This document shows positions 6,931 to 19,087 of a stretch of DNA of 64,000 nucleotides, piece by piece (position 1 is the first letter of the stretch; every line of letters begins with the position of its first letter). This DNA is from Streptomyces sp. yr375 (GTDB lineage: Bacteria; Actinomycetota; Actinomycetes; Streptomycetales; Streptomycetaceae): assembly GCF_900110755.1 (NCBI RefSeq), contig NZ_FOFF01000001.1:486153-550152 (forward strand), written 5' to 3'. Below the pieces are notes generated by a model. It was not told the origin of the DNA. It saw nothing but the letters and a program-made list of their open reading frames with translations, and searched no databases. The translations under genes were made by a program, and so were the position numbers.

Positions 6931-6993
<63 letters not shown>

Positions 6994-7230: not shown

Positions 7231-8691
7231 TTGAGTCACAAGCGAGTTACGAAGCGTAAGGCCATCATCGCGGCTGGCGGTGTGGCCGCGCTCGGAGCGG
7301 CGGCCATCCTGCTTCCTCAGGCGAACGCCTCCCAGGACGGCGGCTCCAACAACGCCGCAACGGTGAAGACCCTGAAGTCGGGCGACGCCTCGGACCTCGC
7401 CTCCCAGCTCGCCGAGCTGCTCGGTGACGCCTTCGCCGGCTCGTACTACGACTCCGACGACAAGCAGTTGGTCGTCAACGTCGTGAACGTCTCCGGCGAC
7501 GACAACAACGTCATCGTGCAGGCGCAGAAGGCGGGCGCGAAGGTCCGCGAGGTCCAGAACAGCAAGGCCGAGCTCGAGGCCGCGGCCAAGACGCTGAAGA
7601 CCAAGGCGACCATCCCGGGCACTTCCTGGGCCGTCGACCCCAAGACGAACAAGATCCTCGTGACCGCCGACGCCACGGTCACCGGCTCCAAGTGGGACCA
7701 GATCGACTCGACGGTCAAGACCCTCGGCTCGGGCATGGCCACCATCAAGAAGTCGGCCGGCACCCTCAAGCCCCTCGTCTCCGGCGGCGACGCGATATTC
7801 GGCGGCGACGCGCGCTGCTCCCTCGGCTTCAACGTGACCGCCGGTGACGGCTCCCCGGCCTTCCTGACGGCCGGTCACTGCGGGGTCGCGGCCAAGCAGT
7901 GGTCCGACTCCGAGACCGGCCAGCCCATCGCCACGGTCGACCAGGCGACGTTCCCGGGTGACGGCGACTTCGCGCTTGTGAAGTACGACGACCCGAACAC
8001 GCAGGCGCCGAGCGAGGTCAACACCGGCCAGCAGACCGTTGCGATCTCCCAGGCCGCCGATGCGACGGTCGGCACGCAGGTCTTCCGGATGGGCAGCACC
8101 ACCGGTCTCAACGACGGTCAGGTCCTCGCCCTCGACGCCACCGTGAACTACCCCGAGGGCACGGTCACGGGCCTCATCCAGACCGATGTCTGCGCCGAGC
8201 CCGGCGACAGCGGCGGCTCGCTCTTCACCCAGGACGGCCAGGCGGTCGGCCTGACCTCGGGCGGCTCCGGCGACTGCACCGTCGGCGGCGAGACCTTCTT
8301 CCAGCCGGTGACCACCGCGCTGGCGGCGGTCGGCGCGACCCTCGGCGACGGCGGCGGCATCGGTGCCGGTGACGCGGTCGGCGGCGACCAGGCGGCCAAC
8401 GGCGGCCAGGCGGCCAACGGCGGCCAGGACCAGGCCGGCAACGGTGGCGAGGAGCAGGCTGCCAACGCGGGCCAGGGCGAGGCTGCCAACGGTGGCCAGG
8501 ACCAGAACGGTGGCGAGGAGCAGGCCGCCAACGCCGGCCAGGGCGAGGCCGTGAACGGCGGTCAGGCGCAGAACCAGGGCCAGGAGCAGGGTCAGGAGCA
8601 GAACCAGGGTCAGGAGCAGAACCAGGGCCAGGAGCAGAACCAGAACGGCAACGGCCTGGAAGACGGCTCGGGCCTGACCGAGTCGCACTGA
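7231..8691 (+). CDS. Secreted S1 (streptogrisin/alpha-lytic type) serine protease with Q/N/G-rich tail
   Basis: A 486-residue preproprotease. It has an N-terminal signal peptide (residues 1-33, KRKAIIAAGGVAALGAAA then ANAS), a pro-region (about 35-190), the catalytic domain (about 195-375) and a tail of about 105 residues. The triad is visible: H216 in LTAGHCG, D246 in GDGDFALVKY and S327 in PGDSGGS. Four Cys (in ARCSLG, AGHCG, DVCAEP and GDCTVG) can form the two disulfides typical of streptogrisins. The tail contains repeats such as EEQAANAGQGEA twice and runs of NQGQEQ, and no membrane anchor. A TTG start follows AGGAGG. Extracellular proteolysis is confident; the role of the tail is unknown. 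Confidence 0.92.
   Translation: MSHKRVTKRKAIIAAGGVAALGAAAILLPQANASQDGGSNNAATVKTLKSGDASDLASQLAELLGDAFAGSYYDSDDKQLVVNVVNVSGDDNNVIVQAQKAGAKVREVQNSKAELEAAAKTLKTKATIPGTSWAVDPKTNKILVTADATVTGSKWDQIDSTVKTLGSGMATIKKSAGTLKPLVSGGDAIFGGDARCSLGFNVTAGDGSPAFLTAGHCGVAAKQWSDSETGQPIATVDQATFPGDGDFALVKYDDPNTQAPSEVNTGQQTVAISQAADATVGTQVFRMGSTTGLNDGQVLALDATVNYPEGTVTGLIQTDVCAEPGDSGGSLFTQDGQAVGLTSGGSGDCTVGGETFFQPVTTALAAVGATLGDGGGIGAGDAVGGDQAANGGQAANGGQDQAGNGGEEQAANAGQGEAANGGQDQNGGEEQAANAGQGEAVNGGQAQNQGQEQGQEQNQGQEQNQGQEQNQNGNGLEDGSGLTESH
8380..8655 (+). repeat. Gln/Asn/Gly-rich repeats encoding the protease tail
   Basis: Imperfect tandem units encode QAANGGQ, EEQAANAGQGEA (twice) and NQGQEQ (several times). The DNA is repetitive as well as the protein, so unit number may vary between strains. 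Confidence 0.85.
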
Positions 8692-11204: not shown

Positions 11205-11574
11205 GGCGACCACCTCCCAAGGGCGGGTCTACGGGTCACCCCGGGACGCGGGGTTCACCGGCTCGGACTCACCTGTACGTACCGGACGCCACGGCTCCGG
11301 GCCGGGTCCGGCGGAACCAAATCTGCCCTCTGGCGGCGCGACGCGCACGGCGAGCGGTGGGTTCGCCCGAGAGCCGCCGTGTACCCCGGTGGGTCATCCG
11401 CCATGCCCCCGCCCCGCCCCCTCCGCCGAAGCGCGCGACGGCGTACGAGCGCCCCGCGTGCGCCCCCGCGCCCCTTGATGGCCGGATCTTCGCGCTCAGA
11501 AACGGTCCCGGAGCCCAAGAATGGGCACGCGCTCAAGACCACGAACCGGCGTACGACGGGGTGAAGGGACGGCA
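11205..11574. promoter_or_regulatory. Divergent promoter region between phosphatase gene and ramR
   Basis: About 370 bases without a gene. It must contain the promoters for the minus-strand phosphatase and for ramR. I see no clear -35/-10 pair or known operator. Confidence 0.45.
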
Positions 11575-12180
11575 GTGATCCGGGTTCTTCTGGTGCATGA
11601 CACGTGTCTGGTCAGATCGGTCCTCGCGCAGTGGCTGTCCCGGGAACCCGACCTGAGGGTGGACGACGTGCCGTGGCGCAGCGCGGCCGGCCGCGTCGGG
11701 ACGGTGCGGCCGGACGTGTGCGCGGCGGATCTCGACTGCTCCGACACGTACGGCATCCCGCCCCTGGGCGACCTGTGCCCGCGCGGCGGACCGCCATCGC
11801 CGCGGCTGCTCGTCCTTGCCGGTGCGAACAGACCGGGCCTGCTGAAACGCGCCCTGGAGGCGGGCGCGCTCGGCTACGTCGACAAGGCGGGCAGTCCGGA
11901 ACACCTGCTGCACGGCATCCGCAAGGTCGCCCAGGGGGAACGTTTCGTCAGTGAGTCCCTGGGCTTCGGTTTCCTCAAGGCCGCCGAGATGCCGCTGACC
12001 CGCCGGGAGCTCAGCGTGTTAACCCTCGCCGCCGAGGGCGCCTCCATCGCGGAGATCGCCGGGAGCCTGCACCTGTCCCACGGGACCGTGCGCAACTACA
12101 TGGCGGCGATCACCCGCAAGACCGGCGCCCGCAACCGCGTCGACGCCATCCGCATCTCGCAGGGCCAGGGCTGGCTGTGA
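11575..12180 (+). CDS. ramR: RamR/AmfR-type response regulator of the SapB cluster
   Basis: A 201-residue NarL/FixJ-type regulator, the expected activator of the ramCSAB operon. The N-terminal receiver domain is atypical: only one acidic residue in the usual metal pocket (LLVHDT), with the likely phospho-acceptor region at PDVCAADLD (residues 47-54). K104 in YVDKAGSPEH matches the conserved receiver lysine. The C-terminal LuxR-type helix-turn-helix (about 140-195) includes TRRELSVLTLAAEG and LSHGTVRNYMAAITRKTGA. Start GTG follows GAAGGGA. Codon 149 is TTA (12019-12021), the codon read only by the bldA tRNA, so translation is probably limited to later growth. The last 162 bases overlap ramB on the other strand. 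Confidence 0.9.
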   Translation: MIRVLLVHDTCLVRSVLAQWLSREPDLRVDDVPWRSAAGRVGTVRPDVCAADLDCSDTYGIPPLGDLCPRGGPPSPRLLVLAGANRPGLLKRALEAGALGYVDKAGSPEHLLHGIRKVAQGERFVSESLGFGFLKAAEMPLTRRELSVLTLAAEGASIAEIAGSLHLSHGTVRNYMAAITRKTGARNRVDAIRISQGQGWL

Positions 12181-14175
12181 GCCGTCCCCGGCCGCACCGG
12201 CCTCGTCGGCTGCCCACTTTTCCCCGGCTGCCCAGCCGCCGACGAGATCGCGGTAGAGGGGCGAGCGCCGCACCAACTCGTCGTGCGTCCCGTACGCCGT
12301 ACGCGGCCCGTCCATGACCAGCACCCGGCCCGCCCGCCGGGCCGAGCTGATGCGGTGGGCCACCACGACCAGGGTGCCGCCCGGCCGCGCCGCGAAGGCC
12401 CGCTCGGCGCGTGCCTCCGCCTCCGGGTCCAGGTGGCAGGTCGCCTCGTCGAGGAGGGCGAGCGGAGCGGACGACAGGTACGCGCGCGTGAGCGCGATCA
12501 ACTGGCGCTCACCGGCCGACAGCGCCGCCGGGTCCACCGCGGCACCGGGTCCGCCCAGCGTGTCGAGCAGCGGGGCCAGCCCGACCGCCTCGGCCGCGGC
12601 GAGCAGTTCCTCCTCGGGGACGGGGTCCGGCCGCAGGTGCGCGAGGTTCTCGCCGAGGGTGCCGCCGAACACGTACGCCTCCTGCGGGATGAGCACGCGC
12701 TGCGCGGCGGCGGCCCCTCCCGGCACCGGCCGGCCGCAGATCCGTATCTCCCCGCGCCCCGGCACCAGCAGCCCGGCGACCAGCCCGGTCAACGTCGACT
12801 TCCCGACCCCGCTCGGGCCTACGACGGCCAGGTGGCCCCCGACGGGCAGGGCGAGCGTGAGGTCGTCGACGACGGGCGCGGAGGCGGGACCGTAGGCGAA
12901 GGTGAGGGACGTCAGGGAGAGGGCGGGCGGCGCGGAGAGCGCGGGGCTCGGCGGGGTCGCGGGGAAGGTGGGGACAGGGGGAGTGGGAGGGGGAGGGGGA
13001 GAGGGCGGATACCCGGACGTATTGCTCGGCCCCGTCGGCCCCGTCGGCACCATTGGGCCTGTCGGCCCGAACAGCTCGACCGGCTCGGTGCCTGGACGTG
13101 GTGCCGGTGTTCCGTCCGGGTCCCGGCGCCAGGCCGCCGCTGCCGCTGCCTCGCCCGGGCCGTCGGCCGGAAGGCAACCTGGCCGGCCCGCCCCTCCTGC
13201 CTCACCCGTCGCACCCGCATCGCCCCCCTCACCCGCATCGCTCGCCTCACCCCCCTCACCCCGCGGAGCAAGTCGTCGTAGGACGATCGTCAGGCGGGAG
13301 CCGCTGGTGCCCAGGCCGTGGATGAGGGCGGTCAGGGCTGGGAGGAGGGACTGGGTGAGGTAGGCGAAGGCGGCGACCAGGGCGCCGGGGGTGACGTCGT
13401 GGGCCAGGAGCCAGGGGGCGCCGGCGAGAAGCAGGACCAGCGGCAGGTGGCCGCCCAGCGCGAGGCAGGCCACGCGGGCCACGCCCCAGTGGGCCAGTGC
13501 GCGGGCCGCCCGCAGCTCGGCGTCGACGAGCGCGCCGGTGTCCGCGGCGACCCGGTCCTCCGCGCCCGCCGCCGTGACGTCCCGCAGCCCCGCACAGACG
13601 ACGCGCAGGCTCCCCGCCAGCGCCTCGTCGGCGGCGAGGAACGCCTCCTGGCGCCGCGCCAGCGGACGCAGCGTCACCGCGAACAGGCCCACCCCGGCGG
13701 CCAGCGGCGGGGCGACGAGCAGGAGCAGCGGCGGCGCGAGCGAGCCCAGACCGATCAGCGCGCCCACGGACGTGAACACGAACGAGCGCGAGACCATCAC
13801 CAGCCCCGCGAAGGCGTCCCGGGCGATCTCCACCTGCTGGGTGAGCCCCGACAACGCCTCGCCGTCCGCCTCCCGCACGCCCCGCTCCACCACCCGGGTG
13901 ACGAGCCGGTCCCGGAGCGGTTCCACCAGCGCGGCGAGCGCCCCGTACACCCGTCCGGTGCCGTACGCCCCCACGAGCACTCCGAGTCCGGCCACCGCGA
14001 GCCACCCGAGCCCCACCCCGGCCCGTCCGGCGAGGAACCCGTCGTCCAGCGCCCGCGCCAGGGCGTAGCCGAGCAGGAAGCTCTGCCCGGTCTCCAGCAC
14101 CGACCAGCCCGCGAGCCGCGCCACGACCCACCGGCGGTCGAGCAAGAAGCGCCCCCCGCGCCGCAGGCTACTCAC
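12019..14175 (-). CDS. ramB: RamB-type ABC transporter (permease-ATPase) of the SapB cluster
   Basis: A 718-residue half-transporter, partner of RamA in exporting the SapB-like peptide. Six-helix permease at about residues 15-300; ATPase at about 420-665 with GPSGVGKST, signature LSAGERQLIALTRAYL, Walker B LALLDEA and H-loop VVAHRIS. Between them lies an unusual Pro/Gly/Ala-rich linker of about 115 residues (about 305-420) with collagen-like GPTGP units and a PPSPPPPPTPP run. The GTG start lies 5 bases from the ramA stop. The C-terminal 50 or so residues lie antisense to the ramR DNA-binding region, and its TAA stop is the complement of the ramR TTA codon. Confidence 0.88.
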   Translation of the reverse strand: MSSLRRGGRFLLDRRWVVARLAGWSVLETGQSFLLGYALARALDDGFLAGRAGVGLGWLAVAGLGVLVGAYGTGRVYGALAALVEPLRDRLVTRVVERGVREADGEALSGLTQQVEIARDAFAGLVMVSRSFVFTSVGALIGLGSLAPPLLLLVAPPLAAGVGLFAVTLRPLARRQEAFLAADEALAGSLRVVCAGLRDVTAAGAEDRVAADTGALVDAELRAARALAHWGVARVACLALGGHLPLVLLLAGAPWLLAHDVTPGALVAAFAYLTQSLLPALTALIHGLGTSGSRLTIVLRRLAPRGEGGEASDAGEGGDAGATGEAGGAGRPGCLPADGPGEAAAAAAWRRDPDGTPAPRPGTEPVELFGPTGPMVPTGPTGPSNTSGYPPSPPPPPTPPVPTFPATPPSPALSAPPALSLTSLTFAYGPASAPVVDDLTLALPVGGHLAVVGPSGVGKSTLTGLVAGLLVPGRGEIRICGRPVPGGAAAAQRVLIPQEAYVFGGTLGENLAHLRPDPVPEEELLAAAEAVGLAPLLDTLGGPGAAVDPAALSAGERQLIALTRAYLSSAPLALLDEATCHLDPEAEARAERAFAARPGGTLVVVAHRISSARRAGRVLVMDGPRTAYGTHDELVRRSPLYRDLVGGWAAGEKWAADEAGAAGDGSQPALALRDADGVDAVAGAGLAGDRRHVVAHGPVGQVQAPGDLRDGGALGGEG

Positions 14176-15898
14176 GCCCCGCCCCCGCCGCCGCTCCGAA
14201 CACCGCTCGGTACTCCGGGATTCGCCACAGTTCCCGGTGCGTTCCGAGCGCCCGTACGCGGCCCCCGTCCAGCCAGGCCACGGCGTCGGCGCGGGCGGCT
14301 GTCGTGGCGCGGTGGGCGACCAGCAGCCGGGTGCCGGGCGCGGGGCCGCCGAGGACGGCCTCGGTGATCTGGTGTTCCGTCACCGTGTCGAGGCTGGAGA
14401 GGGCGTCGTCCAGGACGAGGAGTCGGCCGCCGTGGGCGAACGCGCGGGCCAGGCCCAGGCGTTGGGCCTCGCCGCCGGAGTGCGGGGCGTGCGCGCAGGG
14501 GGTGGCGTAGCCGTCCGGGAGGCGGCGGACGAAGTCGTCGGCGCGGGCCGTGCGGGCGGCCTCGCGGACCCGGGCGGGGGAGGGGCGGGAGGCGTCGGGA
14601 CCCAGGGCGATCGTGTCCTCGATGGTCGTGCCCAGCAGGGCGGGGCGGTCGAAGGCCTGGGCGATCGCCGCGCGCAGCTCGGCCCGGGAGAGGGCGGGCA
14701 GCGGGACGCCGTCCAGCAGCACCTGCCCGGCGTCCGGGTCGGCGAGCCGGCCCGCCAGCGCGGCCAGCAGCGACTTGCCCGCGCCCGAGCGGCCGACCAG
14801 GGCCAGCGTCGTCCCGCCCGGTACGACCAGGTCGACGCCGTCCAGCACCGCGCGCTCCCCGCGCCGGGCGGTCACCCCGCGCAGCTCCAGCCGTCCAGGG
14901 CCGTCCGGCGGGAGACGGCGGTCGCCGTGGACCGGAACGGGTTCGGTGCGGATCTCGCCCAGGCGGGCGGCGGCCGTCCGGGCCCGGACCAGCCCGGAGA
15001 GCTGTCCGACCAGCATGCCGACACCGGTGGCGAGGACCGCGTAGCGCGAGGCGGCGAGGACGTCGCCCGGCGACAGCCGGTGCCGGGTGAGCAGCAGCCC
15101 CGCCACGGCGACCACCCCGAGTTGCAGCAGCGGCGCGACCGCGACGGCCTGCGCGGCGGCCCGGCCCTGGACCCGCCACATGCGCAGGCCCGCCCGGGAC
15201 AGCTCGGGCAGCGGCCGCAGGATCCGCGCCGTGTCCCGGTCCGCCGTCCCGGCCGCGCGGATCGTCCGGGCACCGCCGATCGCCTGCGCGAGCGCGGCGG
15301 CGATGCGCCCCTGCGCCCGCTGGTAGTCCGCCACGCACGCCGAGGTGTCCCGGGCGAGGGAGCGCAGCAGCACGGTCAGGGCCGGGGCGCCGGTCAGCAG
15401 GACGACCACGAGCCACGGGTCGATCAGGGCCAGCGCCACCACCGCGCCGACCGGTCCGGCGAGCGCGGCCAGGAGCGCGGCGCGGGCACCCGGCGCCGCG
15501 CCGGCCTGGGCGGCGTTGCCGACGACCCGCGCGACGAGGTCCCCGGCGCCGAAGCGGGCGGTGGCCCGTGGGCCGACGGCCAGGACATGGCCGGTGATCC
15601 GGCGGCGCAGGAAGGCGGTGGTCCGGGCGTCGAGGGTGGCGGCGAGGACGGTCTCGCAGGCGTCGAGCAGGGTCAGCAGCATCACGAGGGCCGCGCAGTA
15701 CAGCACCCAGCGGGTCGGCGGGGCGTGGGCGAGCAGCAGGTCCAGGGCCCGGCCGAGGGCGGCGGGCAGCAGCAGTCCGGCGCCCGTCCCCGCCACGCCC
15801 ACCAGACACAGCGCGACACAGCGCGCGCGACTGTGCCGGGCGGCGGCGCCGAGCAGCTCACCGGTCGTCCGGTCCGTCTTCGTCCGGTCCATCCGCAT
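14168..15898 (-). CDS. ramA: RamA-type ABC transporter (permease-ATPase) of the SapB cluster
   Basis: A 576-residue half-transporter: permease at about residues 20-300, ATPase at about 335-570. Motifs: Walker A GRSGAGKS, signature HSGGEAQRLGLARAF, Walker B LLVLDDALSSLD and H-loop LVAHRAT. The residue after the Walker B Asp is Asp rather than the catalytic Glu, a mark of the degenerate site in heterodimeric exporters; RamB keeps DE there. The ATG at 15898 was chosen because GGGAGCAGG precedes it; a second ATG two codons later is possible. It overlaps the ramB start. Confidence 0.88.
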   Translation of the reverse strand: MRMDRTKTDRTTGELLGAAARHSRARCVALCLVGVAGTGAGLLLPAALGRALDLLLAHAPPTRWVLYCAALVMLLTLLDACETVLAATLDARTTAFLRRRITGHVLAVGPRATARFGAGDLVARVVGNAAQAGAAPGARAALLAALAGPVGAVVALALIDPWLVVVLLTGAPALTVLLRSLARDTSACVADYQRAQGRIAAALAQAIGGARTIRAAGTADRDTARILRPLPELSRAGLRMWRVQGRAAAQAVAVAPLLQLGVVAVAGLLLTRHRLSPGDVLAASRYAVLATGVGMLVGQLSGLVRARTAAARLGEIRTEPVPVHGDRRLPPDGPGRLELRGVTARRGERAVLDGVDLVVPGGTTLALVGRSGAGKSLLAALAGRLADPDAGQVLLDGVPLPALSRAELRAAIAQAFDRPALLGTTIEDTIALGPDASRPSPARVREAARTARADDFVRRLPDGYATPCAHAPHSGGEAQRLGLARAFAHGGRLLVLDDALSSLDTVTEHQITEAVLGGPAPGTRLLVAHRATTAARADAVAWLDGGRVRALGTHRELWRIPEYRAVFGAAAGAGRE

Positions 15899-15906
15899 CC
15901 TGCTCC

Positions 15907-15947
15907 CGCACTTCGTGGTTTCCGGGCGCACTTCGTGGTTTCCCGGG
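15907..15947 (-). repeat. 20-base direct tandem repeat in the ramS-ramA spacer
   Basis: The unit CGCACTTCGTGGTTTCCGGG (plus strand) occurs twice back to back, the second with one extra C. It ends 8 bases before the ramA start. It could be a recent slippage event or a binding site. Confidence 0.85.
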
Positions 15948-16019: not shown

Positions 16020-16136
16020 TCAGAGACAGAGCAGAACGCTCGCCGCGCTGATGCAGGAGAGCAGGCTGACGGTGCTGTTGCCGCCGCCCCCGGTGTGCTC
16101 GTCGGATTCCATCGTCTGCAGGTCGAGCAGGGCCAT
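16020..16136 (-). CDS. ramS: SapB/AmfS-type class III lanthipeptide precursor
   Basis: A 38-residue precursor. The leader starts MALLDLQTME, carrying the LLDLQ motif that class III synthetases recognise. The core carries two copies of S-x-x-S-x-x-x-C: STVSLLSC (residues 21-28) and SAASVLLC (residues 30-37), one after the other, as in SapB and AmfS. These give labionin or lanthionine rings after dehydration and cyclisation. A GGGG stretch (16-19) separates leader and core. GAAAGGA sits 5 bases before the ATG. It lies between the synthetase gene and the two transporter genes, exactly the ram/amf order. The product should be a surfactant peptide that helps aerial hyphae emerge. Confidence 0.95.
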   Translation of the reverse strand: MALLDLQTMESDEHTGGGGNSTVSLLSCISAASVLLCL

Positions 16137-16218: not shown

Positions 16219-18837
16219 TCATGAGGGCCGCCGGTGCGGCGGCGGGAGGAACGGCAGGTGCGCGGTGGTGCCCGCGCCGTCCGGGTCGAGAGCGGCGGCG
16301 AGGGCGAGCAGACAGCCCGCCGTGCCGGTGCCGAGGTCCATGGACAGCCGCATCATCTGGTGTCCGGGGAAGGCGAGTTGGCCCTGATAGGGCATCGCGA
16401 ACCAGCCCAGGGCGGCGATCTGTTCGGCGAGCCGGGCCGGTGTCGCGCCCGGCGCGGTGGTGCGGGCGAGGTGCAGGATCATCCCGGCGCGGCCCTGGAA
16501 GAGACCGGGCTGCGCGTAGAAGCGGGAGGTGGCGGCGATCAGGATGCCGGCCCGGGCCCGCTCGAACTCCCCGCCGGGGTCCGGGACATGGGCCAGGTGG
16601 TCGTCGAGGACCGCCCCGACCCCCACGCTCCCGTCCCCGAGATACGGCAGGGTCCGCCATCCCTCGTCGACCTCCAGCGAACCCCCGTCGCGCTCCACAC
16701 AGGCCGCCAGGTCCTGGCGCAGCGCGACCCCCGCCGCCTCCAACAGCCCCTGCTCACCGGTCAGTTCGTACTGCCGGAGCAGGAACAGCGCGGGCCCGCT
16801 CGCTCCCCGCAGCAGCCCGGCCCGCCGCCGCGGCGCGTCCGGCACCGGTTCGGCGAGTCGGCGTACGACGATGTCGGCGGCCTCGGCGGCCCGCTCGCGC
16901 AGCTCCGACTCGCCGGTCCTGCGCGCCAGTTCGCCGAGGACGAGCCCCAGTCCGGCCAGACCCCCGTGCAGGCCGGAAGAGAGGTGCTGCCACCGCTCGC
17001 GCAGGATGCCGTCGACCAGGTCAAAGGCCCGCTGCCGGTACCCGAGCAGGTCCAGGACGTGGGCGACGCCCGCGAGGCCGTCGTACAGGCCGAGCGGGGT
17101 GCCCGTCGGGGCCGGGGCGGTGTGGTCGAGGAGCCAGCGCTCGCCCTCGTCGTAGCGCTCGGCGCCGGTCGCCGCCAGCGCGTACAGCACGCCGGCCGCG
17201 CCGTGCGCGAGACCGAGGCCGCCGCCGTCGGAGAACTGGGCGACGTCCCCCGGGAAGAGCCGGTCGTCGCGCTCCGGGCTCGCCGACGCGAGGATCGCCT
17301 TGACCATCGAGTCCCGGCTGTGCGGCCAGTCCCCGGGCTCCACCCGGAAGGCGGGCGCCGACGGGACGCGCGCACCCCGCACCGGCGGCCCGCCGTGGGC
17401 GGTGTCGCGGGTGATCTCCGCGACGGCGTCGTCCAGGAACTCCCGGGGCACGTCCGGGAATTGCCGCGCGATCACCTCGGCGAGATGGGCCGCCTTGCCC
17501 CGGTCGACCACGAACAGCGTGGTCACGGGCAGGAACAGGGCGAGCCGTAAGCACGCCAGGGCGTAGCGGTCGACGTCGACGCCCCGGCGGTCGGGCGGCG
17601 CGAAGAAGCCGGGGTGCGCGACGACCTGCCGGCCGTTCTCCTCGGCCGGGGCCGCCGCCTCGAAGTCGATCAGGTACACCGACTCCTCGTCGGGCGCGAC
17701 CATGATGTTGAAGACATGCAGGTCGTTGAAGACGATCCCGCACGCGTGCACCTTCTCCACCGCCCGCTCCACCGCCCGGTGGACGCGCACCGCCCACGCC
17801 GTGTACGCGGCGACGGCCCCCGGGTCGGGGTCGGCGCACAGCAACGGGTGCCGTTCGGCGAAGAACGAGTTGAGCGGGCGTCCCGCCACGAAGTCCATGA
17901 CGAGGAAGCGGTGGTCGCCGAGCAGGAACCAGTCCCGGACCTCGGGCACCACCCCGGTCCCCGCCACCGCCTCCAGCGCCCGCTTCTCCCGCTCCAGCCG
18001 GGTGATCGCGTCCGCCCCGTCGGAGGCCAGTCCCGCGTGCGGCCGCCCCTCCTTGAGGACCACCTGCCGCCCGTCCCGGGTGTCGGTGCCGGCGTACACC
18101 CCGCCGCCGTTGGAGAAGTGCAGCGCCTTCTCGATGCGGTACGGCAGTTCGCCCACCGTCGTCGTGTTGCGCGACGCGAGGTGCGGCTCCAGGAACGGGG
18201 GCAGCGTCACCCACTCCGGGACCTGGAAGGACGGGGCCCGCCGGTCCGGCACCAGGGTGCCCGCGCCGTCCTGCACCGCCGGCACGAGCGAGCCGCGCTC
18301 GTCGACGACGTACCGGCGCGCGAACGCGCCGTAGCGGACGTAGAGCGGGCCGTCGTGCCAGCGCAGGTCGGTCAGGATGTACGGGCCCTCGAAGCCCTCC
18401 AGCAGGGCGCCCAACTCGCGCAGCACCGTGTGCAGTTGCTCGTCGTCGGACGGGTAGACGGTGACGAACTTGCCGCTGGCGTCGCGGCCCGCGTACTTGG
18501 TGTTGCGCAGGTGCAGCAGGTGCGGGCCGGGCACGAACTTGAACGGGACGCGGCGCGGCACGCAGTAGTCCCACACGATCGCCGCGATCCGGTCCGCGTT
18601 CGCCCGGGTGGCCGAGGCGTGGATCTTCCAGCCCTGGGCCGGACCCGGGGCGGGGGAGCCGTCGGCGGCGAGCGGGGTGAGCGTCAGCCAGTCACCGGTG
18701 CGCGCCGAATCCCAGCCCTCGGGGACCGGCCGGCGCGCCGTGTCGAACAGCGGCGCGCCGCCGCCCGTGCCCATCCGGTCGGGCGTCTCGTAGAAGTGCG
18801 CGTCCGCCAGCGCGTACACCTCGTACCGCTTGTCCAT
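16219..18837 (-). CDS. ramC: Class III lanthipeptide synthetase (LanKC), RamC/AmfT type
   Basis: A roughly 872-residue enzyme that phosphorylates Ser/Thr of the precursor, eliminates phosphate and cyclises with Cys. It has an N-terminal lyase region, a Ser/Thr kinase-like domain (about residues 225-480) with VVLKEGRP (ATP-binding Lys), FNDLHVFNIM (catalytic loop, about 367-376) and LIDFEAA in place of DFG, then a LanC-like cyclase domain (about 520-870) with LAHGAAGVLYALA and FQGRAGMILHL. The zinc-ligand Cys-Cys-His set of true LanC is not evident, as expected for class III. ATG follows AAGGAGGGGG. Codon 430 is TTA (17548-17550), suggesting bldA control. First gene of the ram operon. Confidence 0.94.
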   Translation of the reverse strand: MDKRYEVYALADAHFYETPDRMGTGGGAPLFDTARRPVPEGWDSARTGDWLTLTPLAADGSPAPGPAQGWKIHASATRANADRIAAIVWDYCVPRRVPFKFVPGPHLLHLRNTKYAGRDASGKFVTVYPSDDEQLHTVLRELGALLEGFEGPYILTDLRWHDGPLYVRYGAFARRYVVDERGSLVPAVQDGAGTLVPDRRAPSFQVPEWVTLPPFLEPHLASRNTTTVGELPYRIEKALHFSNGGGVYAGTDTRDGRQVVLKEGRPHAGLASDGADAITRLEREKRALEAVAGTGVVPEVRDWFLLGDHRFLVMDFVAGRPLNSFFAERHPLLCADPDPGAVAAYTAWAVRVHRAVERAVEKVHACGIVFNDLHVFNIMVAPDEESVYLIDFEAAAPAEENGRQVVAHPGFFAPPDRRGVDVDRYALACLRLALFLPVTTLFVVDRGKAAHLAEVIARQFPDVPREFLDDAVAEITRDTAHGGPPVRGARVPSAPAFRVEPGDWPHSRDSMVKAILASASPERDDRLFPGDVAQFSDGGGLGLAHGAAGVLYALAATGAERYDEGERWLLDHTAPAPTGTPLGLYDGLAGVAHVLDLLGYRQRAFDLVDGILRERWQHLSSGLHGGLAGLGLVLGELARRTGESELRERAAEAADIVVRRLAEPVPDAPRRRAGLLRGASGPALFLLRQYELTGEQGLLEAAGVALRQDLAACVERDGGSLEVDEGWRTLPYLGDGSVGVGAVLDDHLAHVPDPGGEFERARAGILIAATSRFYAQPGLFQGRAGMILHLARTTAPGATPARLAEQIAALGWFAMPYQGQLAFPGHQMMRLSMDLGTGTAGCLLALAAALDPDGAGTTAHLPFLPPPHRRPS

Positions 18838-19087
18838 GCGTCCCCCTCCTTGGCCCGGCCAAGAGACTCCCAAGCGGGCGAGGGGCGCGGACAGTCACGC
18901 CTGTCACGACATCAGTGTGCGAAACGCACGCGTAAAGACATGTTCGGCCCCTTTCGAGCACCTTCCTTCACGTCTTGCACACGATCTCCACTCGATCTCC
19001 ATCCACCCCCTCCGACCTCCATGAAACCCGGCACCGGGGACTGCATGGGGGCTGCGCGGGGACCGCCTAGGCGCTCTAATTGCGGAC
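18838..19087. promoter_or_regulatory. ramC upstream region with repeated motifs
   Basis: About 250 bases between divergent ramC and a phosphatase gene. It contains direct repeats GTCACG (18894-18899, 18903-18908; 9-base spacing) and CGATCTCCA (18982-18990, 18993-19001; 11-base spacing), and the palindrome GTGCGAAACGCAC (18917-18929). RamR is known to bind the ramC promoter as repeated sites; which of these it uses is inference. Confidence 0.4.

Follow-up and report, generated by a model that had tools for sequence, protein, structure and literature searches.

Can the position of a single codon be held by two genes at once? At positions 12019–12021 of the 64,000-nucleotide stretch of DNA analysed here (the window), from the soil bacterium Streptomyces sp. 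yr375, the plus strand reads TTA in frame as codon 149 (leucine) of ramR, and the same three bases on the minus strand are TAA, the stop codon of ramB. This reading, made in the initial annotation, is exact in the sequence, as is the 162-base convergent overlap (12019–12180) that ends at the TTA codon. The surrounding locus is a ram/amf class III lanthipeptide cluster by its gene content, because ramA, a ramS precursor gene and ramC lie beside ramR and ramB (matches to NF038151, NF033212, ABC_tran twice, GerE and Response_reg); the gene names are assigned by resemblance to such clusters. ramR (amfR; 11575–12180, plus strand) encodes a predicted response-regulator/LuxR-type activator of 201 amino acids, recognized from its open reading frame, its Pfam Response_reg and GerE matches and its orthologues, with a GTG start at 11575 and a stop at 12178–12180. 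The other four genes lie on the minus strand: ramB (12019–14175, an open reading frame of 718 amino acids) and ramA (14168–15931), both predicted ABC exporter subunits with ABC_tran matches; ramS (16020–16136), a predicted SapB/AmfS-type class III lanthipeptide precursor of 38 amino acids (NF033212, 4.8e-17, 61.8 bits); and ramC (16219–18873), a predicted class III lanthionine synthetase (NF038151, 1157.9 bits). The content of ramC, ramS, ramA and ramB with a convergent ramR is the same as in other ram/amf (SapB/AmfS) clusters, which differ just in how ramB ends, long- and short-ramB clusters both occurring.

The ramB and ramR frames are codon-aligned across the overlap, with the last 53 sense codons of ramB and its stop antisense to ramR. 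In this phase ramB can stop within ramR only opposite TTA (giving TAA), CTA (TAG) or TCA (TGA), so a ramB stop on a rare codon is expected mechanically. Orientation and phase are ordinary for prokaryotic convergent overlaps: phase 123:321, which by our own reading of PMC2174442 is the codon-aligned phase of ramB/ramR, accounts for 33% of convergent overlaps of at least five bases in Table 3 of that paper. Without its stop, the ramB of the window would run on for 162 further codons, beyond the ramR start.

We compared 294 rows of ramR and its flanking sequence, taken from Streptomyces and further genera of its family, 34 of which are duplicates with identical sequence around the ramR stop, leaving 260 distinct loci; the named relatives are nearly all Streptomyces. 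A first search matched 205 of 392 genomes, and all 150 places among the matches listed were taken; a later search contributed 30 loci, some already in the set, and 40 further listed places taken by choice, most of the weaker ones being left out. The first set comprised 206 loci (190 with ramB), to which 54 distinct loci were added afterwards. The locus of the window is included in the counts, and the later sets omit three paralogues (L002, L003 and L005), L004, and L006, which is the window again. We called a locus long when the ramB frame stays open in the aligned phase for at least 130 bases into ramR, short when it ends near the ramR stop, and mid when ramB is intermediate or in another phase; what separates long from short is the sequence beginning at about ramR codon 160, and the stop site itself plays no part in it. 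By these definitions 142 loci are long, 89 short and 5 mid, 3 have only a distant ramB match and 21 have no detectable ramB. The last two groups, the 21 including some at contig ends, stand outside the tree and the tests, which cover the 236 loci with a convergent ramB (142 long, 94 short or mid). The gene tree was built from the parts of RamR and RamB outside the overlap; it is a quick, unrooted tree with long branches and no bootstrap. In three long loci that are counted (L118, L159 and L266), internal stops interrupt the last 300 ramB codons, marking broken genes or assembly errors, and L015 is classed as long although its ramB stop precedes the site. A plasmid record with a similar ramB carries no gene annotation at that place.

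A sequence error or a loss of the ramB stop private to this strain, which would dissolve the link, was ruled out: 77 of the 142 long loci, the window included, end ramB with TAA at the same ramR codon. A further 3 use TAG at CTA149, 53 use TGA at TCA150, 5 stop at codon 146 and 4 elsewhere. A stop-complement codon at ramR codon 146 (TTA or CTA), 149 (TTA or CTA) or 150 (TCA), a five-codon span corresponding to 12010–12024 in the window, is thus present in 138 of 142 long loci, compared with 9 of 94 short or mid loci. Among 18 supported, independent contrasts on the tree, a mean of 12.4 changed in the expected way, 5.6 showed no difference and 0.0 went the opposite way (median p 0.0005); the first set alone gave 15 contrasts (12.4, 2.6 and 0). 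On the tree, ramB switched between long and not-long at least 25 times. As the stop site was defined after inspection of the first set, the 54 loci added later bear on it separately: the stop-site codon occurs in 22 of the 23 long loci among them and in 4 of the 25 short ones (Fisher p 1.1e-8, uncorrected for relatedness), the remaining six comprising five without detectable ramB, three of which have a stop-site codon, and one with a distant match. The comparison therefore shows that the stop site follows ramB read-through, and suggests that evolution keeps a ramB stop at ramR codons 146–150; conservation of one five-codon site, as seen across these loci, is more than the codon-aligned geometry predicts.

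The co-occurrence of the ramR TTA with the ramB stop is likewise borne out, with TTA149 in 79 of 142 long loci and 3 of 94 short or frame-shifted ones. The ramB stop is TAA in 81 of the 142 long loci and in a single one of the 89 short loci, and the rarer codons point the same way: CTA149, which keeps the ramB stop, occurs in three loci, all long, and TTG149, which loses it, in five that are either short or mid (without correction for relatedness, Fisher p 0.018). The initial annotation had described the two constraints as locked together. That idea appears largely right, in that TTA149 tracks read-through and two long loci without it, L010 and L142, run further (overlaps of 225 and 288 bases) while adjoining TTA149 loci in the tree; but the link looks like a flexible five-codon stop window rather than a rigid lock, as 61 of 142 long loci stop instead at TCA150, CTA149 or TTA/CTA146. 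Site states changed at least 19 times among long loci alone, counting 'none' and TTA149 with TCA150 as states. Exceptions exist on both sides: four long loci lack the stop site (L010, L015, L142 and L295), nine short or shifted loci retain a stop-site codon, and so do 8 of the 21 loci without detectable ramB, which are outside the tests (5 TCA150, 2 TTA149, 1 TTA146).

These distributions bear on whether the arrangement is neutral, an early ramB stop having been lost so that the frame ran through the stop-poor antisense strand of a high-GC gene to a chance rare codon, with a valueless tail and TTA149 kept for bldA alone. The geometry would be mechanical on such an account, and long convergent overlaps are often spurious: 124 of 178 above 60 bp were judged misannotations in PMC2478687, as far as that paper is accessible, the other 54 being possibly true and mostly conserved in very close species only. 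Neutral read-through is nevertheless already strained. Where ramB does not read through, TTA149 and TCA150 are each found in just 3 of 94 loci, and TCA150, which has no bldA meaning, behaves like TTA149, with 6.9 contrasts changing the same way as long ramB and 0.2 the opposite way (median p 0.016). The type of stop also varies while its place stays within the five codons. Together with the stronger synonymous constraint in long loci described next, this makes a neutral origin unlikely in our estimate.

If the ramB tail is under selection, ramR should change less freely at synonymous sites where it is overlapped. In tree-disjoint pairs, the median ratio of synonymous difference in the overlap to that in the ramB core was 0.587 for the long pairs (n = 67) and 0.89 for the short ones (n = 35; p 1.6e-6; one of 103 pairs had too few sites), whereas the control ratio of upstream ramR to ramB core did not differ between long and short (p 0.86). 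The first set alone gave 0.59 and 0.93 (57 and 27 pairs, p 7e-6; control p 0.98), and its effect persisted without leucine and serine codons (0.62 and 0.98). It was present among loci sharing at least 70% identity with the window (48 and 9 pairs, p 0.001), weaker below 70% identity (17 and 26 pairs, p 0.048), and present when TCA150 loci were set against short ones (23 and 39 pairs, p 0.008); it was not replicated in the newly added loci by themselves, which are few and more distant (10 and 9 pairs, p 0.60 and 0.21). Along ramR, the long-to-short ratio of synonymous difference was 0.81, 0.60, 0.68 and 0.60 in the overlap, 0.80 at codons −54 to −65 and 0.94 to 1.06 beyond, so the border of the constraint at the ramB stop is not sharp. 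Comparison thus shows ramR synonymous sites in the overlap to be constrained where ramB reads through. Furthermore, of the ramR-synonymous changes in the overlap, 229 of 362 in long loci altered the antisense residue radically, as did 225 of 313 in short ones (p 0.021), with no such difference upstream (p 0.81). Because this reduction of ramR synonymous change in the overlap is confined to loci with a read-through ramB, the C-terminal ramB tail (12022–12180, minus strand, antisense to the ramR helix-turn-helix) looks selected and dual-coded. Read-through ramB is also found in distant orthologues, in 142 of 260 loci and, among rows from other genera of the family, in 12 of the 26 on the tree, and the signature expected of purifying selection on the second frame appears in the full comparison, although the newly added subset alone did not show it; both are consistent with a true long convergent overlap.

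Constraint on synonymous sites might instead reflect a conserved nucleotide-level element, such as a terminator, an antisense RNA duplex or an RNA structure of the overlapping 3′ ends, with both the stop and that constraint as by-products. The constraint does cover the whole overlap, convergent transcripts could pair, and overlap ramR third positions shift from G to C in long loci, unlike those of the control region (uncorrected for relatedness). Yet the codons involved (TAA or TAG at 149, TGA at 150, TAA or TAG at 146) have nothing in common except that each ends the ramB frame. Scans for terminators, promoters and Rfam families found nothing: 11300–12500 has no terminator-like site, and no Rfam family reached its gathering score anywhere in the window. 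Moreover, codon preference has no single direction across sites, GCC being favoured over GCG at some while GTG is favoured over GTC and GGG over GGC at others, as a preference for particular residues predicts. Depending on the site, the preferred overlap codons yield Asp over Tyr, Gly over Arg and Pro over Ala on the antisense strand (140 long and 88 short loci, uncorrected for relatedness). We regard a nucleotide-level element as improbable, even more so than neutral read-through. At ramR codon 194 (12154–12156), ATA isoleucine occurs in 43 of 88 short-ramB and 11 of 140 long-ramB loci.

Basic and aromatic residues are scarcer in the tail encoded by long loci than in the corresponding frame of short loci (140 and 88 loci, uncorrected for relatedness); in the control region net charge differs too (p 1e-6) and aromatic content does not (p 0.48). 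An AlphaFold model based on 22 aligned sequences placed the ATP-binding part with good confidence and gave pLDDT below 50 for residues 229–300 of the modelled segment, which makes a disordered tail likely. We infer that the tail is translated and is useful, or at least harmless, as a disordered non-basic extension. It must be dispensable somewhere, since 89 short loci do without it. Read-through further into ramR would presumably be costly. For the 116 first-set long loci that end at the site, the run-on in the absence of that stop would have a median of 123.5 codons, and in 48 it would go beyond the ramR start. The membrane part and the ATP-binding part of ramB are separated by a long proline-, glycine- and alanine-rich stretch of low complexity at about residues 300–415 (window about 12930–13275, minus strand).

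What remains is whether the TTA at this place also answers a demand of ramR itself. According to the literature on TTA control, the bldA tRNA is the only tRNA for UUA. With the ramB core of the same first-set loci as background, TTA makes up 124 of 4,758 leucine codons of ramR outside codons 146, 149 and 150, and 5 of 10,491 in the ramB core, which makes it about 50 times commoner in ramR. CTA (27 and 48 among the same leucine codons) and TCA (82 of 2,534 and 135 of 3,551 serine codons) have similar shares in the two. TTA is thus specifically enriched in ramR by this comparison while CTA and TCA are not, so a separate bldA-type demand for TTA on ramR is real. Neither demand accounts for TTA149 alone. 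A ramB stop with no bldA role was rejected, as TTA but not CTA shows enrichment elsewhere in ramR, and TTA149 outnumbers CTA149 by 79 to 3 in long loci; a bldA codon alone was rejected as well, given how seldom TTA149 occurs where ramB does not read through.

At least one TTA is present in 209 of 260 ramR genes, and codon 149 is its most frequent position. Nor is the link rigid on the ramR side, where a TTA often stands at other positions, in 43 of 63 long loci without TTA149 and 70 of 94 short or mid loci. TTA elsewhere is found in 29 of 82 loci with TTA149 and 112 of 154 without it, a difference that falls short of significance when tested by independent contrasts (median p 0.125). In the window, TTA149 is the sole TTA of ramR, the in-frame TTA by which bldA-dependent genes are recognized; the dependence itself is putative, and decoding of the ramR UUA in Streptomyces sp. 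yr375 would be bldA-dependent. ramC contains a single TTA too (codon 442 of the open reading frame, 17548–17550), a second possible bldA-dependent step of the cluster, and loss of the ramR TTA therefore need not free the cluster from bldA.

The distribution of the two main stops suggests an order of events. Among the 26 tree rows from other genera of the family, 12 combine a long ramB with TCA150; the other 14 are short, 2 of them having TCA150. As other genera carry TCA150 and none has TTA149, TGA over TCA150 is probably the older form of the ramB stop, an order proposed on an unrooted tree. TTA149 may then have arisen in Streptomyces, one codon further on for ramB, taken over as the stop and let TCA150 drift; both codons are present in L011 and L144.

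Taken together, we consider it probable that ramB/ramR is a true long convergent coding overlap with a selected tail, a stop kept in ramR codons 146–150, and TTA149 meeting both the bldA and the stop demand. Under this model the ramB frame would pass the transporter core and continue for about 50 codons antisense to the ramR helix-turn-helix, the extension being ended by a stop held within those codons, probably first as a TGA over the serine codon TCA150. In a large Streptomyces group TTA149, wanted in ramR because, we propose, the developmental tRNA bldA reads it, would double as the TAA stop of ramB, one trinucleotide serving two demands.

Compared with other convergent overlaps, ramB/ramR is mostly 159–171 bases long, spans several genera, has a dual-coding signature and has a stop that changes type but rarely place. 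Set against what is accessible of PMC2478687 and PMC2174442, it is unusual in length and breadth and not new in kind. Searches of open-licence PMC papers listed none on this overlap, and the main text of PMC13380574, a recent paper on a similar cluster, does not contain the word 'overlap'. The frequency of TTA in ramR orthologues is already reported (7 of 12 genomes in Table 2 of PMC4255298) and agrees with ours; the accessible parts of that paper differ in not mentioning a TTA position that doubles as the stop of a convergent exporter gene. The distinction matters, as conserved TTA codons serve as an argument for bldA control of Streptomyces genes. Given that the most frequent TTA position of ramR is also a stop on the opposite strand, that position has a second cause to be separated from bldA, and the conservation of TTA149 is confounded with the antisense stop. 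More tentatively, and leaning somewhat against it ourselves, we suggest that the position of the bldA TTA in ramR was set from the opposite strand by the exporter gene's need for a stop, coupling developmental translation of the activator to termination of the last gene of its target operon, and that other conserved TTA codons may in some cases be antisense stops too. As a natural experiment on long antisense coding overlap, the ramB/ramR pair is well sampled, and the cluster to which it belongs serves aerial growth.

Two minor observations concern the window outside the cluster. A run of 62 G residues lies amid otherwise normal sequence at 6932–6993, possibly an assembly or sequencing artefact, and a serine-protease-like open reading frame at 7231–8691 (a single weak match, below the cut-off) has a long repetitive C-terminal tail rich in glutamine, asparagine and glycine.
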